Positions 48,810 to 54,664 of a stretch of 64,000 bases of DNA are shown here, in pieces (the stretch's first letter is position 1; every line of letters begins with the position of its first letter). The stretch spans positions 4,227,501 through 4,291,500 of the forward strand of contig NZ_CP060202.1 in the NCBI RefSeq assembly GCF_014250515.1, read 5' to 3'. The stretch is from Hymenobacter sediminicola (lineage in GTDB: Bacteria > Bacteroidota > Bacteroidia > Cytophagales > Hymenobacteraceae). The position numbers and the translations under genes were made by a program. The notes below the pieces were generated by a model, which was not told where the DNA came from, made no database searches, and saw only the letters and a program-made list of their open reading frames with translations.

Positions 48810-49052
48810 TTACTTCTGCTCAGTGGTGGTAGTCGTCGTGGTCGACGAAGCCTCGGTGGTAGCAGCGGGAGCCGTGGTAGCAGCAGCCGTGGTGTCAGCC
48901 GACATAGCCGTCGAGTCCGTAGTAGCAGGAGTCGTGGTTTCTACGGTACCGGTTTCAGTGGTAGTGGTTTCTTCGGTCGTAGCGGGCTTCGACTCGCAAG
49001 ACGACAGAGCTACAGCGAAAAACAGAGCAGATACCTTGAGAAGGTTCTTCAT
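48810..49052 (-). CDS. Threonine-rich low-complexity lipoprotein
   Basis: 80 residues. Signal peptide with lipobox LLKVSALFFAVALSSC, so the mature protein begins with a lipidated Cys. The remaining 60 residues are almost all Thr, Ala, Glu and Ser (TTEETTTTETGTVETTTP), with no expected fold. It resembles the small low-complexity lipoproteins seen throughout Bacteroidetes, perhaps a surface spacer or O-glycosylation substrate; that role is inference. It is divergent from the sigma factor gene, with 131 bp between them. Confidence 0.78.
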   Translation of the reverse strand: MKNLLKVSALFFAVALSSCESKPATTEETTTTETGTVETTTPATTDSTAMSADTTAAATTAPAATTEASSTTTTTTTEQK

Positions 49053-49112
49053 GGTTGTGGTAAGTTTGAAAAATTTGTCTGAAAACCCCCTTCATACTCC
49101 TGAAGGAAGAAG

Positions 49113-49149
49113 GTAACCCAGAACATAAATATTTTTTTGAGCGGGTTAC
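49113..49149. promoter_or_regulatory. Inverted repeat in the sigma-factor/lipoprotein divergent promoter region
   Basis: GTAACCC (49113-49119) and GGGTTAC (49143-49149) flank 23 bp of AT-rich sequence (ATAAATATTTTTTTG), with the right arm ending 34 bp before the sigma factor ATG. The layout resembles a pair of operator half-sites or a promoter enclosed by binding sites. Arms are short, so chance is possible. Confidence 0.3.
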
Positions 49150-49183
49150 TTCACCCTGCTCAATGTATTAAAGACCAAAGTGA

Positions 49184-49771
49184 ATGGCGAAGGCCACTGC
49201 TTCCTACACCGATGACGAATTCGTGGCGGCCATCCGCCGCGGCGACGACCGGGCCCTGGCTCAGCTCTACCGGCTGCACCTGCCCATGGTTTCGCACTAC
49301 GTGCTGCAGAACAGCGGCACCGAAGACGAAGCCAAGGACGTCTATCAGGAGGGCATCATGGTGTTTTATGAGAAAGTACGCGACGGCTCGCTGGAGCTCA
49401 GCTGCCAGATCAAAACCTACCTGTATGCTGTCTGCCGCCGGCTCTGGCTCAAGCGTCTCACCGAGAAAACCCGTTTCGGCGGCCGCCTCGATGACCACGA
49501 GCCGTATCTGGAAACCGGCGCTGAAGCCGACCTGCTGGAAGCGGAGGAACGCGACCGGCGCTTTGCCACCATGGGCGAGGCGCTGGAACGACTCGGGGAG
49601 CCCTGCCGTTCGCTTTTGGAAGGCTTTTACCTGCTCGACAAGTCGATGCAGCAACTTACGGCAGACTTCGGCTACACCAACGCCGACAATGCCAAGAATC
49701 AGAAATACAAGTGTCTGGTGCGTTTGAAAAAACTGTTTTTCACCCATTACAAGGAAGAAGAATCGTTCTGA
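49184..49771 (+). CDS. ECF-type RNA polymerase sigma factor (sigma-70 family)
   Basis: 195 residues. Region 2 spans about 10-95: DDEFVAAIRRGDDRALAQLYRLHLP, EDEAKDVYQEGIMVFYEKV (the -10 recognition helix) and KTYLYAVCRRLWLKRL. Region 4 spans about 122-190 (ALERLGEPCRSLLEGFYLLDKSMQQLTADFG and the recognition helix NADNAKNQKYKCLVRLKKLF, each in parts). ECF sigmas redirect RNA polymerase on an envelope or stress signal and are usually held by a membrane anti-sigma factor encoded next door. Here the gene 50 bp downstream has an anti-sigma-like N-terminus fused to a protease. Confidence 0.93.
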   Translation: MAKATASYTDDEFVAAIRRGDDRALAQLYRLHLPMVSHYVLQNSGTEDEAKDVYQEGIMVFYEKVRDGSLELSCQIKTYLYAVCRRLWLKRLTEKTRFGGRLDDHEPYLETGAEADLLEAEERDRRFATMGEALERLGEPCRSLLEGFYLLDKSMQQLTADFGYTNADNAKNQKYKCLVRLKKLFFTHYKEEESF

Positions 49772-49821
49772 CATCTCGCCCCTGACCTGCCAATGCGGGC
49801 CTCACCCACCCGCCTTACCCC

Positions 49822-50982
49822 ATGATGACTGAAGCTGACTATTACGCTTTATTTGAGGCTTACCAGCACGGCGAGCTAGCTGCTCCGGCGCGCACTGACT
49901 TGGAGCGCCGCCTGTCGGCTGACCCGGTGCTGGCGCAACGCTACGCCGATTTTACGGACCTGACCTCTACGCTGAGCAGCTACGGCCAGCGCCTGAGCAC
50001 GCGCCGCAAGCTGCGCGCCATCCAAGCCGATCTGGATGCTGAGCGGGCGGTGAAGCTGACAGCTGACGACGAGGTAGTGGAAACCGGCAATCCACAGATG
50101 CCGCAACTCCACATTTCGCGCACCGAGCAAAAGCTGCGTGAATTCTGGCATGGACACCGGGCTACCATGATGGTAGCTGCTTCGGTAGCAGTGCTGGCTG
50201 TATTCACTACGCTCTTGGGTCTGGAATGGTGGAAAGCCCGCCAGCAGCCAACCCAATACGGTTACACAGTGCTGCGCCGCGACGTGGACCGTATCAAGCG
50301 CACCCAGCGCGTGATGAACAAGGCCATCAATCAGATTGGCGCGTTGCCGGCAGCCATCAACCCCGGCAAATTCAGCGGCACAGGCTTTGCCCTCACCTCA
50401 GATGGTTATATCGTGACGAGCTACCACGTCATTCAGGGGGCTGATTCTCTGCTGATTGAGGGCCGCGACCGGCAACGGTACCGCGCCGAGCCGGTCTTCT
50501 CCGATGTCGCCCACGACTTGGCTATACTGCGCATCAAAGACCGAAACTTCAGCGGTTTTGGCCGCCTGCCTTACTCGTTTAAGCGTGGCACAGCTGAGCT
50601 GGGCGAGAAAATCTACACGCTGGGCTATCCACGTGAAGACCAAGTATACAACGACGGCTCCTTGAGTGCCCGCACGGGTTTCGAAGGCGACTCAGCTTTC
50701 TATCAGATCAGCATTCCGGTGAACCCCGGCAACTCGGGCGGCCCGCTGCTTGATGACCGGGGCAACCTGATTGGCATCATCAGCGGCCGGCAAATGGACG
50801 TGCAGAGCGCGGCATTCGCCACTAAGTCGTCGTACCTGATGAAGCTGGTGGACTCGCTGAGTTCCATGAACTCGGTGCAGCCCTACAACCTGCCACGCAC
50901 CAACCAGCTGGCCGGCAGCTCCCGCCCCCAGCAGATCCGGAAGCTACAGGATTACGTGTTCGTGGTGAAAGTGTACGAATGA
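49822..50982 (+). CDS. Membrane-anchored trypsin-like serine protease with anti-sigma-like N-terminus
   Basis: 386 residues. Residues 1-110 are a soluble helical region starting EADYYALFEAYQHGELAAPA and containing LERRLSADPVLAQRYADF, a pattern typical of the cytoplasmic part of Bacteroidetes anti-sigma factors. One membrane helix at about 114-134 (TMMVAASVAVLAVFTTLLGL) follows. The periplasmic part is an S1C/DegP-like protease with His202 (SYHVIQGA), Asp232 (AHDLAILRI) and Ser305 (NPGNSGGPLL). No PDZ domain is present. It sits 50 bp after the ECF sigma gene and is probably cotranscribed; a role as its regulator is inferred. A terminator follows at 51016. Confidence 0.88.
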   Translation: MMTEADYYALFEAYQHGELAAPARTDLERRLSADPVLAQRYADFTDLTSTLSSYGQRLSTRRKLRAIQADLDAERAVKLTADDEVVETGNPQMPQLHISRTEQKLREFWHGHRATMMVAASVAVLAVFTTLLGLEWWKARQQPTQYGYTVLRRDVDRIKRTQRVMNKAINQIGALPAAINPGKFSGTGFALTSDGYIVTSYHVIQGADSLLIEGRDRQRYRAEPVFSDVAHDLAILRIKDRNFSGFGRLPYSFKRGTAELGEKIYTLGYPREDQVYNDGSLSARTGFEGDSAFYQISIPVNPGNSGGPLLDDRGNLIGIISGRQMDVQSAAFATKSSYLMKLVDSLSSMNSVQPYNLPRTNQLAGSSRPQQIRKLQDYVFVVKVYE

Positions 50983-51015: not shown

Positions 51016-51046
51016 AAAGCCCTGCCTCTTCGGCAGGGCTTTTTTT
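51016..51046 (+). terminator. Terminator of the sigma factor/protease operon
   Basis: AAAGCCCTGCC / GGCAGGGCTTT, loop TCTTC, then a T run to 51046. Confidence 0.9.
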
Positions 51047-51240: not shown

Positions 51241-52968
51241 ATGGACCGCAGAGCTTTCCTCCGCAAGCCGGCCACCACGCTTACTACTTCGGCTGCCGCC
51301 GTACTGGAGCGGCCTCAACCTTCCGGCACCCCAACAGGCGACGACGAAACGGTAAGCCGATATGCCAATACCAAGCTGCCCACGGCTGCTCGTTCTACGG
51401 CGGGCCTCAGCCCATATGTTGGCCCCTGGGGCTACGCGCAGGCGGCACATCTGCTTCGGCGTTGCCTATTTGGCCCCACTCGTACCGAAATTACGACGGC
51501 TGCCAGCCAGAATCTGGTACAGGTGATAAACACATTACTGACTGCACCGCCCGCACCTGCTCCGCCACTCAACGTATCTGCTACCGATACTAGCGTGGCT
51601 ATCGGGCAGACCTGGGTGGCCCAGCCGTTTGATCAGAATTTTGAGGGCGTGCGCCGTACGTCGCTCCGCTCCTGGTGGATGGGCCAGCTGCTGGGGCAAG
51701 GGCCTTCGCTGGTGGAGAAGATGACGCTGTTCTGGCACAACCATTTCGTAATTGAACTGGGCGACATCAACGACGCGCGCTACGGCTATCAGTACTGTGC
51801 CTTGCTGCGGCAGCATGCGTTGGGCAACATTCAGCGTCTGACCGAGGACATTACTGTGGCTCCGGCCATGCTGCGCTACCTCAACGGCAACCAAAGCACG
51901 GCTACGGCCCCCAACGAAAACTACGGCCGTGAGCTACTGGAGCTGTTTACGGTGGGCAAAGGCCCGTTGATTGGTCCCGGCAACTATACTACCTATACCG
52001 AGGACGACGTGCAGGCCGCCGCCCGCGTGCTCACGGGCTGGCGCGACAATGCCACCACGCAGGCAGGCTACTTCACGGCCTCGCGGCACAGCACCACGAC
52101 CAAGCTCTTCAGCAGCGCTTTCCAGAATACCACCATCACTAACCAAGGCGACCAGGAGTATAAGGCGTTGATTGCGCTGATTTTCGCGCAGGTAGAAACG
52201 GCGCGTTTCCTGTGCCGCAAGCTCTACCGTTGGTTTGTGTACTATGTTATTGATGCCACGGCCGAGGCCCAGGTGATTCAGCCGCTGGCGCAGCTGCTCA
52301 TGCAAAACAACTACAACGTGGCCCCAGTGCTACGGACGTTGCTGTCGAGTGAGCATTTCTTTGATGCCGTGAACATGGGCTGCGTTATCAAAAGCCCGCT
52401 CGACTTTACGGTGGGTACTGCCCGGCAGCTGCAAATAGCCTTTCCGGCCAGCACCAGTCTCACGGGGCAATACGCTATGTGGAACTACCTGAACAGCGTC
52501 ACGAATCTGCAGCAGCAGTACCTCGGCGACCCGCCGAACGTAGCGGGCTGGCCTGCTTACTGGCAGACGCCGCAGTACTACGAAATGTGGATAAATGCCG
52601 TGACGCTGCCCCGCCGCAACCAGTTCACGGACCTGATGATCAGCACCAACGGCTACACTACCAGCGGCGCCACCATCAAGATAGACCCAATTGAGCTGGT
52701 TCTTACGCTGCCGCCTGCCACGGCTGCTGACCCTAACTTGCTGATTGCGGAACTGGCCCGGCTACTCACGCCCATTGAACTGACTACCAATCAGCTCACC
52801 TTTCTCAACGACACGCTCCTGCCGGGTTTGCCCGATTTTGAATGGACCGTGGAGTGGCAGGAATACCTGGCTGCCCCTACCAATGCCACCAAAAAAGCTG
52901 CCGTCAGGACCAAGCTACAGGCCCTGCTACGCCAGTTGATGGGCCTGGCAGAATACCATCTTAGCTGA
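51241..52968 (+). CDS. DUF1800 domain-containing protein
   Basis: 575 residues. It has the family blocks AQAAHLLRRCLFGPT, LTLFWHNHFVIEL-like MTLFWHNHF, AMLRYLNGNQSTATAPNENYGRELLELFTVG (in parts), DDVQAAARVLTGWR and VAGWPAYWQTPQYYEMW. A twin-arginine start (MDRRAFLRKP) lacks a strong hydrophobic segment, so export is uncertain. DUF1800 proteins are almost always encoded next to a DUF1501 protein, as here (112 bp downstream). The biochemical role of the pair is unknown. The 258 bp upstream contain only the preceding terminator and an AT-rich stretch. Confidence 0.92.
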   Translation: MDRRAFLRKPATTLTTSAAAVLERPQPSGTPTGDDETVSRYANTKLPTAARSTAGLSPYVGPWGYAQAAHLLRRCLFGPTRTEITTAASQNLVQVINTLLTAPPAPAPPLNVSATDTSVAIGQTWVAQPFDQNFEGVRRTSLRSWWMGQLLGQGPSLVEKMTLFWHNHFVIELGDINDARYGYQYCALLRQHALGNIQRLTEDITVAPAMLRYLNGNQSTATAPNENYGRELLELFTVGKGPLIGPGNYTTYTEDDVQAAARVLTGWRDNATTQAGYFTASRHSTTTKLFSSAFQNTTITNQGDQEYKALIALIFAQVETARFLCRKLYRWFVYYVIDATAEAQVIQPLAQLLMQNNYNVAPVLRTLLSSEHFFDAVNMGCVIKSPLDFTVGTARQLQIAFPASTSLTGQYAMWNYLNSVTNLQQQYLGDPPNVAGWPAYWQTPQYYEMWINAVTLPRRNQFTDLMISTNGYTTSGATIKIDPIELVLTLPPATAADPNLLIAELARLLTPIELTTNQLTFLNDTLLPGLPDFEWTVEWQEYLAAPTNATKKAAVRTKLQALLRQLMGLAEYHLS

Positions 52969-53080: not shown

Positions 53081-54664
53081 ATGAAACGCAGACATTTCCT
53101 CCAGACTACTGCCACGGCTACGGTGCTTCCCACGCTGCTCGGCGGTCTGCCCATTGGGGCCTATGGCTTCTCGCCGGAGCTGTTCGACATAACGGGCGGC
53201 GCGACACAAACCGACCGGGTACTAGTGCTGATTCAGCTGAACGGCGGCAACGACGGGCTGAACACGATTATCCCGACTGACCAGTACGCGGCCCTCATGA
53301 ATGCCCGCGCCGACATTGCCATTCCGCAAAACCAGGTATTGCCATTGAGTGCCGTAACAGGCATTCATCCGGCCATGGCAGGCGTGAAAAACCTATTCGA
53401 TGATGGCAAAATAGGCGTGGTACAGAGCGTGGGTTACCCCAACCCCAATTACTCGCACTTCCGCGCCACCGACATCTGGACTTCCGCTTCCGACTCCAAT
53501 GTCACTATCACCTCGGGCTGGGCCGGGCGCTACCTCAACTCGGAGTATGCCAACTACCCCACCGGCTACCCCAGCGCCACCAACCCCGATCCACTGGCTA
53601 TCAGCATTGGGTCGGTAGTCAGCAACTGTGTGCAGGGCCCCGCCGTGAACATGGGCATGGCCATTGCCAGCACGGCCTCGTTCTACCAGCTGCTGTCGGG
53701 TGGAGTGGATGTGGCGCCCAACACACCAGCCGGGCACGAGCTGACCTTCATCCGGCAGGTGATTTCGCAGACGCAGGTGTATACCACTGCCATTCAGGCA
53801 GCAGCAGCCCGTGCCCGCAACCTTTCGCCGCTCTACCCCACGGCTGGCCAAAACTCCCTCGCCGATCAGCTCAAAATAGTGGCGCAGCTAGTGGCGGGCG
53901 GCCTGCAAACCCGCATCTACGTCTGCAACCTCGGCGGCTTCGATACGCACGCCACCCAGGTTCCTACCACGGGCAGCACCACAACAGGCACCCACGCTAC
54001 ATTGCTCGGCAAAATCTCGCAGGCGCTGGAGGCGTTCCAGGATGATTTGCGCCGCCTGACGGTGCAGGACCGGGTGGTGGGCATGACGTTTTCGGAGTTT
54101 GGGCGCCGCATCAAGGCAAATTCCAGCAAAGGCACCGACCACGGCGCAGCGGCTCCGCTCATCGTGTTTGGCACCAGTGTCAACCCCGTCATTCACGGTG
54201 CCAATCCAGTACTACCTGCTAATGCCGGCGTGAACGACCAGGTACAGATGCAGTTTGACTTCCGGGCCGTGTATGCCAGCCTGCTCAAAGACTGGTTCCG
54301 GGTGCCACAGGCTACGCTCAATGCCCTGCTCCCCTCCAGCATCGGGCAGTTTCCGTACATGCCCATCATCCGGCCCAGTGTGGTGGCAGGCACCAGCGCC
54401 GCCAACACTAGTGTGGCGGCGTTCAGTGTGTATCCAAATCCGGTACGGGAACGGGCCACGGTAGAATTTGAAAGTGAAGGTGGCCACGTGCAGGTGGTGC
54501 TTTACGATGCGCTGGGCCGCGAAGTAGCGCGCCTGCTCGACCGAAAACTCCCTGCCGGCCTGCGCCAGATTCCACTTGATGCCAGCGCCCTGGCAGCCGG
54601 TTCCTATCATTGCCACGTGCAGGAAGGCCAGCGGGTCAGCTCCCGGCTGGTGGTAGTGGAATAG
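53081..54664 (+). CDS. DUF1501 domain-containing protein with Tat-like leader and T9SS C-terminal domain
   Basis: 527 residues. The leader MKRRHFLQTTATATVLPTLL contains the RRxFL signature of Tat substrates. The DUF1501 (sulfatase-like fold) body shows VLVLIQLNGGNDGLNTIIP, GKIGVVQSVGYPNPNYSHF, NLGGFDTHATQ and MTFSEFGRRIKAN followed by GTDHGAAAPLIVFG. From about residue 450 a type IX sorting domain follows: VYPNPVRERATVEF to GSYHCHVQEGQRVSSRLVVVE (in parts). The combination suggests folding before inner-membrane export, then T9SS secretion to the surface. It forms a pair with the DUF1800 gene upstream. Confidence 0.93.
   Translation: MKRRHFLQTTATATVLPTLLGGLPIGAYGFSPELFDITGGATQTDRVLVLIQLNGGNDGLNTIIPTDQYAALMNARADIAIPQNQVLPLSAVTGIHPAMAGVKNLFDDGKIGVVQSVGYPNPNYSHFRATDIWTSASDSNVTITSGWAGRYLNSEYANYPTGYPSATNPDPLAISIGSVVSNCVQGPAVNMGMAIASTASFYQLLSGGVDVAPNTPAGHELTFIRQVISQTQVYTTAIQAAAARARNLSPLYPTAGQNSLADQLKIVAQLVAGGLQTRIYVCNLGGFDTHATQVPTTGSTTTGTHATLLGKISQALEAFQDDLRRLTVQDRVVGMTFSEFGRRIKANSSKGTDHGAAAPLIVFGTSVNPVIHGANPVLPANAGVNDQVQMQFDFRAVYASLLKDWFRVPQATLNALLPSSIGQFPYMPIIRPSVVAGTSAANTSVAAFSVYPNPVRERATVEFESEGGHVQVVLYDALGREVARLLDRKLPAGLRQIPLDASALAAGSYHCHVQEGQRVSSRLVVVE

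Follow-up and report, generated by a model that had tools for sequence, protein, structure and literature searches.

Signalling through an anti-sigma factor normally takes three separate parts, the inhibitor and the proteases that cut at site 1 and site 2. In the RseA/DegS/RseP (sigma-E) and MucA/AlgW systems of proteobacteria, the inhibitors RseA and MucA have a class I anti-sigma domain and a single membrane helix, and RseP is the site-2 protease. Here we describe a locus in a 64,000-nucleotide stretch of the Hymenobacter sediminicola genome (contig NZ_CP060202.1, positions 4,227,501 to 4,291,500; the window), in which a gene for an extracytoplasmic function (ECF) sigma factor is followed by a gene for an anti-sigma-like protein fused to an S1C trypsin-like protease (Table 1). 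The locus resembles the two systems above in its class I-like domain, single membrane helix, HtrA-type protease as candidate for site 1 and RseP-like protein for site 2. In those systems the anti-sigma factor is separate from a PDZ-bearing protease (the available part of PMC8103513 describes DegS as a site-1 protease with PDZ), whereas here a single protein without a PDZ match holds both parts. Two of the roles of inhibitor, site-1 protease and site-2 protease may be fused in this protein. With inhibitor and protease possibly fused, a point mutation of one residue, Ser305, would separate the protease as trigger from the protease as sensor.

The nearest precedent for the fusion is RsgI9 of Clostridium thermocellum, which reportedly carries a further NTF2-like domain. 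According to the available portion of PMC12203970, it likewise is an anti-sigma factor with a membrane helix, an XAA motif in that helix and an outer S1C-like domain. RsgI9 is an orphan anti-sigma-I factor, whereas the present protein has an adjacent ECF sigma gene. Its cytoplasmic domain is beta-barrel-like and its protease-like domain is described as polysaccharide-binding; the present protein, in contrast, has a helical class I-like domain and belongs to a family with the catalytic triad intact in 108/108 members (for RsgI9, same portion of PMC12203970). Classification as an RsgI-type anti-sigma-I factor was rejected since the partner is an ECF sigma factor and no RsgI family appears in the complete list of Pfam matches of the family (51 alignment rows); the NCBIfam matches listed cover 25 of 31 families. 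FecR/FoxR-type proteins are also anti-sigma factors able to cut themselves (excerpt of PMC9249621), but the window fusion has a serine protease domain.

Class I anti-sigma domains lie beside 6% of Bacteroidetes ECF sigma factors, compared with 32% on average, in the accessible text of PMC7406223. The anti-sigma/S1C fusion family is one candidate answer to how the many ECF sigma factors of this phylum are controlled. A full-text literature search, which did not reach the ECF classification and two RsgI9 papers, found no description of an ECF sigma factor with an anti-sigma factor bearing a complete S1C triad. The pair is apparently undescribed and is a variant of a known switch type. The pair itself is real and well supported, and from it we infer the mechanism given below.

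Conservation of the sigma factor and fusion gene pair

Re-reading of the sequence gave the same open reading frames (ORFs) for the two genes as the initial annotation. The sigma protein matched NCBIfam model TIGR02937 (E 5.1e-16, residues 24-183 of 195) and Pfam family Sigma70_r2 (E 8e-8). In the Pfam scan the region-4 model had no match, though the TIGR02937 match covers nearly the whole protein. By these matches, the protein is a short ECF sigma factor with sigma-70 regions 2 and 4. In VIA-align, the model of a relative matched the folds of SigL region 4, SigH, SigK and SigmaE chains with Z of 8-10, which is weak evidence for helical bundles.

The 4.5-Mb source genome encodes one full-length copy of the fusion, and a separate HtrA of 514 residues. 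At E≤1e-25, matches were found in 154 of the 390 genomes of the order sample (43/129 genera) and in 36 of the 395 genomes of the phylum sample (24/170 genera); both counts include some S1C proteins other than the fusion. Seven matches of the phylum sample lay outside the class. Five of these were fetched, and all five were S1C proteins of other kinds. Named relatives with the fusion include Hymenobacter, Mucilaginibacter, Sphingobacterium, Pedobacter and metagenome assemblies of Chitinophagales/Chitinophagaceae.

To examine gene order, 118 loci were fetched. In 108 of them a sigma homologue lies directly upstream on the same strand, with a gap of -32 to +173 nt. The ten exceptions are two contig edges (L089, L107) and eight other S1C proteins (L002, L057, L111, L112, L115-L118), which are longer and have no anti-sigma N-terminus, as their length, N-terminal sequences and the extent of the match indicate. 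Thus, among the 110 true family members, 108 have the upstream sigma gene and two start at a contig edge. All 12 named relatives (L119-L130) have it as well, L122 being the same genome as L038.

The reverse comparison started from the close sigma orthologues, a set cut by hand at E 7.2e-46 with the paralogues below. By coordinates, 139 of 141 adjoin the protease gene, in genomes that largely overlap the fetched set. One of the remaining two (G103) adjoins it when fetched (L208), and in the other (G092) both genes are at contig ends. Eight genomes had the protease and no row in the sigma set. Four of them (G380, G385, G386, G389) have the sigma gene in fetched loci (L066, L074, L010 and L003, respectively); G141 starts at a contig edge, G382 and G383 were left out, and in G082, a 75% complete genome, the upstream sigma gene is broken and spread over three frames.

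Several bacterial families retain the two genes side by side. A chance fusion or mis-assembly is ruled out, since the same architecture occurs in 108 loci whose protein sequences all differ. The initial annotation had proposed an ECF sigma factor paired with an anti-sigma-like/protease fusion, and had made this depend on the two genes occurring together in relatives. The Pfam and NCBIfam matches and the adjacency in 108/118 loci, with every exception explained, bear out both points.

Architecture of the fusion protein

The AlphaFold2 model of the fusion protein, built from 13 sequences, had a mean pLDDT of 78.7 and a pTM of 0.52. It predicts N-terminal helices at residues 4-15, 21-33 and 35-83, a linker at 84-99 with pLDDT below 50, and then a helix at 100-141, whose pre-membrane part carries L105, F108 and W109. 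Beyond residue 141 follow a low-confidence helix (147-172), a trypsin-like beta fold that starts at residue 184, a helix at 336-349 and, at the C-terminus, a helix (368-376) and a strand (379-385). The class I anti-sigma scheme, in the part of PMC7406223 available, consists of a three-helix bundle, a flexible linker and a fourth helix. The predicted helix order of residues 1-112 matches this scheme.

In profile searches, the window protein matched the NCBIfam model NF052375 "anti-sigma factor" with E 6.2e-5, which is under the curated cut-off. We then scanned the family alignment (51 rows, 50 distinct proteins) against Pfam and NCBIfam at E≤0.01. NF052375 was matched by 28/51 rows (best E 7.5e-9), and the further anti-sigma models NF010501 and NF047528 by 6/51 and 2/51 rows, respectively. 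The anti-sigma part is the least conserved region of the fusion protein. Cysteine is absent from it in 70/108 family members, which speaks against a zinc site; the domain is probably zinc-free and class I-like.

The sigma factor and anti-sigma domain of Sphingobacterium detergens were co-folded, with a stop codon read as Gly. This model had a mean pLDDT of 84.9 and a pTM of 0.76, which was obtained without a control fold and describes the whole model, not the interface; residues 201-270 form a block with pLDDT above 90. The VIA-align lists were filled by the sigma part of the co-fold model and by the protease part of the fusion model, not by the anti-sigma part. Residues 1-112 would bind the sigma factor.

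The paralogous sigma factors of the Cytophagales provide a comparison. The nine closest among the matches listed (L199-L207) are 38-42% identical to the window sigma factor. Behind 9/9 lies a protein that has a membrane helix and shares with the fusion the N-terminal pattern IExYLxGxLxxxE..FE..L..DP. When the N-terminal profiles of the fusion family and of these proteins were compared, they matched with a probability of 98.4 and an E of 4.9e-15. Unlike the fusion, these proteins have non-protease ectodomains in 9/9 cases by eye, and a Pfam scan of the one scanned (L201) gave no notable match. The same N-terminal domain thus follows the sigma factor while the ectodomain changes, and by this comparison the protease is an exchangeable, swapped-in ectodomain.

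Five of the paralogous pairs (L200, L201, L204, L205, L207) also share their downstream neighbourhood, with genes that we take to be ftsX and undecaprenyl-diphosphatase genes.

A different view is that the sigma factor is not bound by the N-terminal region, that the two genes are merely co-transcribed and that their second product acts as an HtrA-like protease anchored in the membrane. The sub-threshold NF052375 match of the window protein fits this view. So does a search of PDB sequences with the N-terminal profile, which found no anti-sigma chain and tells against the sigma/anti-sigma pairing; its best matches, a fusion protein (E 0.0074) and then nuclear receptors (E 0.05), were dismissed as noise. 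Against mere co-transcription stand the 28/51 rows that match an anti-sigma model, the presence of the same domain behind paralogous sigma factors without a protease, and the adjacency in every testable case, including the one genome with a broken adjacent sigma gene. We regard it as very improbable. The N-terminal region had been called anti-sigma-like in the initial annotation. The NCBIfam matches, the paralogue profile match and the predicted helix bundle support this indirectly, and the pairing is very probably a sigma/anti-sigma system.

The single membrane helix, placed by eye, lies inside the predicted helix 100-141. At its cytoplasmic end is an xAA motif, V118-A119-A120, and Ala-Ala occupies positions 119-120 in 107/108 relatives. 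The pair is also at the same place in 7/9 proteins behind the paralogous sigma factors, by eye. In C. thermocellum, ClpXP recognised XAA motifs in the membrane helix of RsgI factors in vitro, those of RsgI2 and RsgI9 in chimeras (available portion of PMC12203970). The source genome encodes an RseP-like M50 protein (E 9.6e-54).

Between membrane helix and protease, residues 147-172 have a hydrophobic fraction of 0.79 at a/d positions compared with 0.16 elsewhere. A polar core position, Gln162, is kept in 88/108 relatives. This heptad pattern with its polar core points to a stalk formed as a coiled coil, in which case the fusion protein would be oligomeric.

Pfam Trypsin_2 matches residues 186-319 of the fusion protein with E 8.3e-27. 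The protease part aligned with chains of HtrA1, DegS, MucD and DegP in VIA-align with Z of about 19-20 over 157-183 residues. Most of the 50 matches listed by a BFVD search were proteases, polyproteins or viral proteins without a name. Residues 202, 232 and 305 are H, D and S, and the triad is intact in 108/108 family members with an adjacent sigma gene. The domain is an HtrA/DegS-type S1C trypsin fold with its triad, and a degenerate protease is ruled out because the triad is kept throughout the family. PDZ is neither among the Pfam matches of the window protein nor among the 14 Pfam families matched by the 51 family rows at E≤0.01 (complete list). A DegS orthologue was set aside for this reason, and the protein was classed as S1C-like. 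The intact triad and the lack of a PDZ match, both read initially from the sequence, held up in these scans.

By eye, three S1C proteins that lack an anti-sigma domain (L057, L112, L115) have a C-terminal end similar to that of the fusion, so that the extension probably belongs to the protease module. The YVFVVKVY segment, with its aromatic end, was considered as a DegS-type activating peptide. This was set aside since the region is predicted as helix and strand and has a similar counterpart in anti-sigma-free S1C proteins. L057, L112 and L115, of which two come from outside the class, are S1C proteins that are secreted or are lipoproteins. Proteins of this type are a possible source of the ectodomain.

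Promoter-like motif and small lipoproteins

The divergent promoter region and lipoprotein gene, absent from the initial annotation, are the best handle on the function of the pair. In an alignment of 30 sigma upstream regions from the genus and near genus, the inverted boxes GTAACCC and GGGTTAC occur in at least 90% of rows. With GTATT downstream of the boxes, they form two divergent GGGTTAC-N15-GTAT motifs. A slightly looser motif was found in 90/120 sigma upstream regions on the + strand and in 63/120 on the - strand, and at 0.0 in shuffles. The 120 regions are 119 distinct ones, L038 and L122 being counted twice.

The exact motif has three sites in the source genome, compared with 0 for the reversed control. 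Two are at the sigma locus, and the third is 44 nt upstream of a gene for a lipoprotein of 93 aa. The 31 genus genomes searched contain 98 exact sites vs 22 in the control, with at least one site in 30/31. We examined 74 distinct genus sites with a preset rule, a lipoprotein of 45-130 aa starting within 90 nt of the site. Twelve precede a sigma gene and 30 precede a small lipoprotein, 4 of these at the sigma locus and 26 elsewhere; one of the 30 (L287) contains unknown bases. Looking in the reverse direction from the same sites, small lipoproteins were found in 0/74. The sigma share of 12/74 is an undercount, as 40 extra sites were chosen from the 98 mostly so as to avoid known sigma-locus pairs. 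Seven further sites, outside the 30, precede lipoproteins that fail the rule (L228, L229, L231, L245, L265, L275, L280).

In 85/120 loci the neighbouring gene that diverges from the sigma gene encodes a small lipoprotein. The motif lies 20-70 nt before it in 50 of these 85, compared with 15/120 for a control window. The divergent lipoproteins are 58-113 aa long, with 28% Thr and 17% Ala in the tail. From these counts, we infer that GGGTTAC-N15-GTAT is the promoter of the sigma factor. The predicted regulon in the genus is the sigma operon itself and small lipoproteins; outside the genus, support is confined to the motif copies at the sigma locus. The predicted GGGTTAC promoter would be a ready reporter.

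The sigma start codon is 15 nt past the -10-like GTAT (49165-49184), and 15-16 nt at genus sigma sites, one row aside. With this spacing, the sigma transcript would be nearly leaderless. The lipoprotein starts 41 nt past its own GTAT.

The window lipoprotein and the product of L216:1571-1852 are very small and have tails rich in Thr, Ala, Asp and Glu, which are probably disordered. Neither of these two, when scanned, matched a Pfam family at the cut-off. A second type of lipoprotein in the genus has a helical-looking repeat (KADAMEEKADAVRDSADA). In three genus genomes (L229, L245, L280) the motif precedes yet another lipoprotein (MKKLWQLLPLLGLLLGGCAQQ... and similar), with the start 54-55 nt downstream.

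These lipoproteins could act back on the protease, as its feedback ligand or as a decoy substrate. Accumulating lipoproteins would occupy or inhibit the S1C domain and turn the switch off; when lost or mislocalised, they would turn it on. The divergent small lipoprotein gene in 85/120 loci (50 with the motif) and the other genus sites that precede small lipoproteins agree with such a role. There is also an analogy in AlgW, where the ligand of the PDZ domain is the C-terminus either of MucE or of outer-membrane proteins that are mislocalised (available part of PMC8545111). On the other side, no hydrophobic C-terminal peptide is shared among the lipoproteins listed, there is no PDZ match, and the lipoproteins may be mere protective output. 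We consider this role unlikely, and it would be compatible with a self-cleaving switch. A stronger form, a three-gene lipoprotein homeostat, is rather speculative. Here the built-in HtrA would sense, by substrate occupancy, how abundant the tiny disordered lipoproteins are or where they are located, and the sigma factor would make both them and itself. If this were true, site-1 protease, sensor and inhibitor would be one polypeptide and the output would also be the input.

The proposed switch and its alternatives

We propose that the pair is an autoregulated switch. The S1C domain would be the first to cut the anti-sigma factor of which it is part, and RseP and ClpXP would act next. In the off state, the class I domain would hold the sigma factor to the inner membrane, while the S1C domains would stand in the periplasm on coiled-coil stalks, probably as oligomers. 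A periplasmic signal would render the S1C domain active. The active protease would then cut the anti-sigma factor close to the membrane or in the stalk, either in cis or in the subunit next to it. After this, an RseP-like site-2 protease would cut within the membrane helix. The released fragment, ending in xAA, would pass to ClpXP. The free sigma factor would transcribe from GGGTTAC-N15-GTAT promoters its own operon, the divergent lipoprotein gene and, in the genus, a few more small lipoprotein genes. Oligomerisation, self-cleavage, the order of cuts, the ClpXP step and the signal are all conjectural. RseA-like regulated intramembrane proteolysis (RIP), with a site-1 cut outside, a site-2 cut in the membrane and ClpXP degradation, would be consistent with the xAA motif and the RseP-like gene. 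Self-cleavage, suggested in the initial annotation together with cutting of neighbours on envelope damage, fits the xAA motif (107/108), the RseP-like gene and the presence of only one other Trypsin_2 protein above the cut-off in the genome, the separate HtrA. We put the probability of the autoregulated switch at about one half.

Several observations weigh against it. The protein lacks PDZ, the module that triggers known site-1 HtrA proteases. Other proteases could make the first cut. In the 108-member alignment, residues 142-182 vary in length and sequence and no cleavage site can be named. As to the targets, the shorter motif GGGTTAC-N15-GTA has six sites in the source genome vs two in the control, and none of the three sites gained in this way has a small lipoprotein within 90 nt. 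In the genus, 32/74 sites precede neither a sigma gene nor a small lipoprotein by the preset rule. In eight chosen genomes outside the genus, GGGTTAC-N15-GTA has 84 sites vs 86 for the reversed control, and the control is equal or higher in 5/8. Thirty distinct sites were fetched from outside the genus. Five of them belong to sigma loci, and among the 25 others 0/25 precede a small lipoprotein. A wider regulon outside the genus was rejected on these counts, and we restrict the claim of extra targets to the genus.

The main rival to the self-cleavage switch keeps the sigma/anti-sigma switch but makes the protease a sensor and quality-control enzyme and not the site-1 protease of the anti-sigma factor itself. 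Occupancy of the S1C domain by substrate, either misfolded envelope proteins or the small lipoproteins, would change the stalk; another protease would cut first, or release would be conformational. Such a role has a parallel in C. thermocellum RsgI9, whose protease-like domain binds polysaccharide and whose periplasmic domain can autocleave (accessible portion of PMC12203970). Ectodomains also differ among the paralogous systems, as expected of sensors. The invariant triad (108/108), on the other hand, argues that catalysis is in use, and we hold a sensor-only protease to be the less probable reading. The autocleavage of RsgI9 is said to lie in a separate domain.

Table 1. Positions in the window of the features of the sigma factor/fusion locus
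Feature	Position	Strand	Evidence
Small Thr/Ala-rich lipoprotein gene, 80 aa, lipobox LSSC, predicted sigma target	48810..49052	-	ORF, conserved divergent gene
Mirror-image promoter-like motif GGGTTAC-N15-GTAT, divergent lipoprotein gene	49094..49119	-	Upstream-region alignment, genome counts
Promoter-like motif GGGTTAC-N15-GTAT, sigma operon	49143..49168	+	Upstream-region alignment, genome counts
ECF sigma factor gene, 195 aa	49184..49771	+	ORF call; Pfam/NCBIfam matches; adjacency in relatives
Anti-sigma/S1C-protease fusion gene, 386 aa	49822..50982	+	ORF, Pfam, triad check
Cytoplasmic class I-like anti-sigma domain, residues 1-112	49822..50157	+	Model, alignment, NCBIfam, profile comparison
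Membrane helix, about residues 113-135	50158..50226	+	By eye; inside predicted helix 100-141
Periplasmic heptad-repeat stalk, residues 147-172	50260..50337	+	Hydrophobicity pattern, alignment, low-confidence helix
S1C trypsin-like protease domain, residues 183-349, His202, Asp232, Ser305	50368..50868	+	Pfam, VIA-align, triad check
Conserved C-terminal helix-strand extension (R368, Q371, YVFVVKVY)	50869..50979	+	Model, alignment
Terminator-like hairpin GCCCTGCC/GGCAGGGC then T7	51019..51046	+	Read in sequence

Downstream of the terminator-like hairpin are two + strand genes, 51241-52968 and 53081-54664. Presumably they form a DUF1800/DUF1501 pair, and the second appears to end in a sorting domain of the T9SS type.

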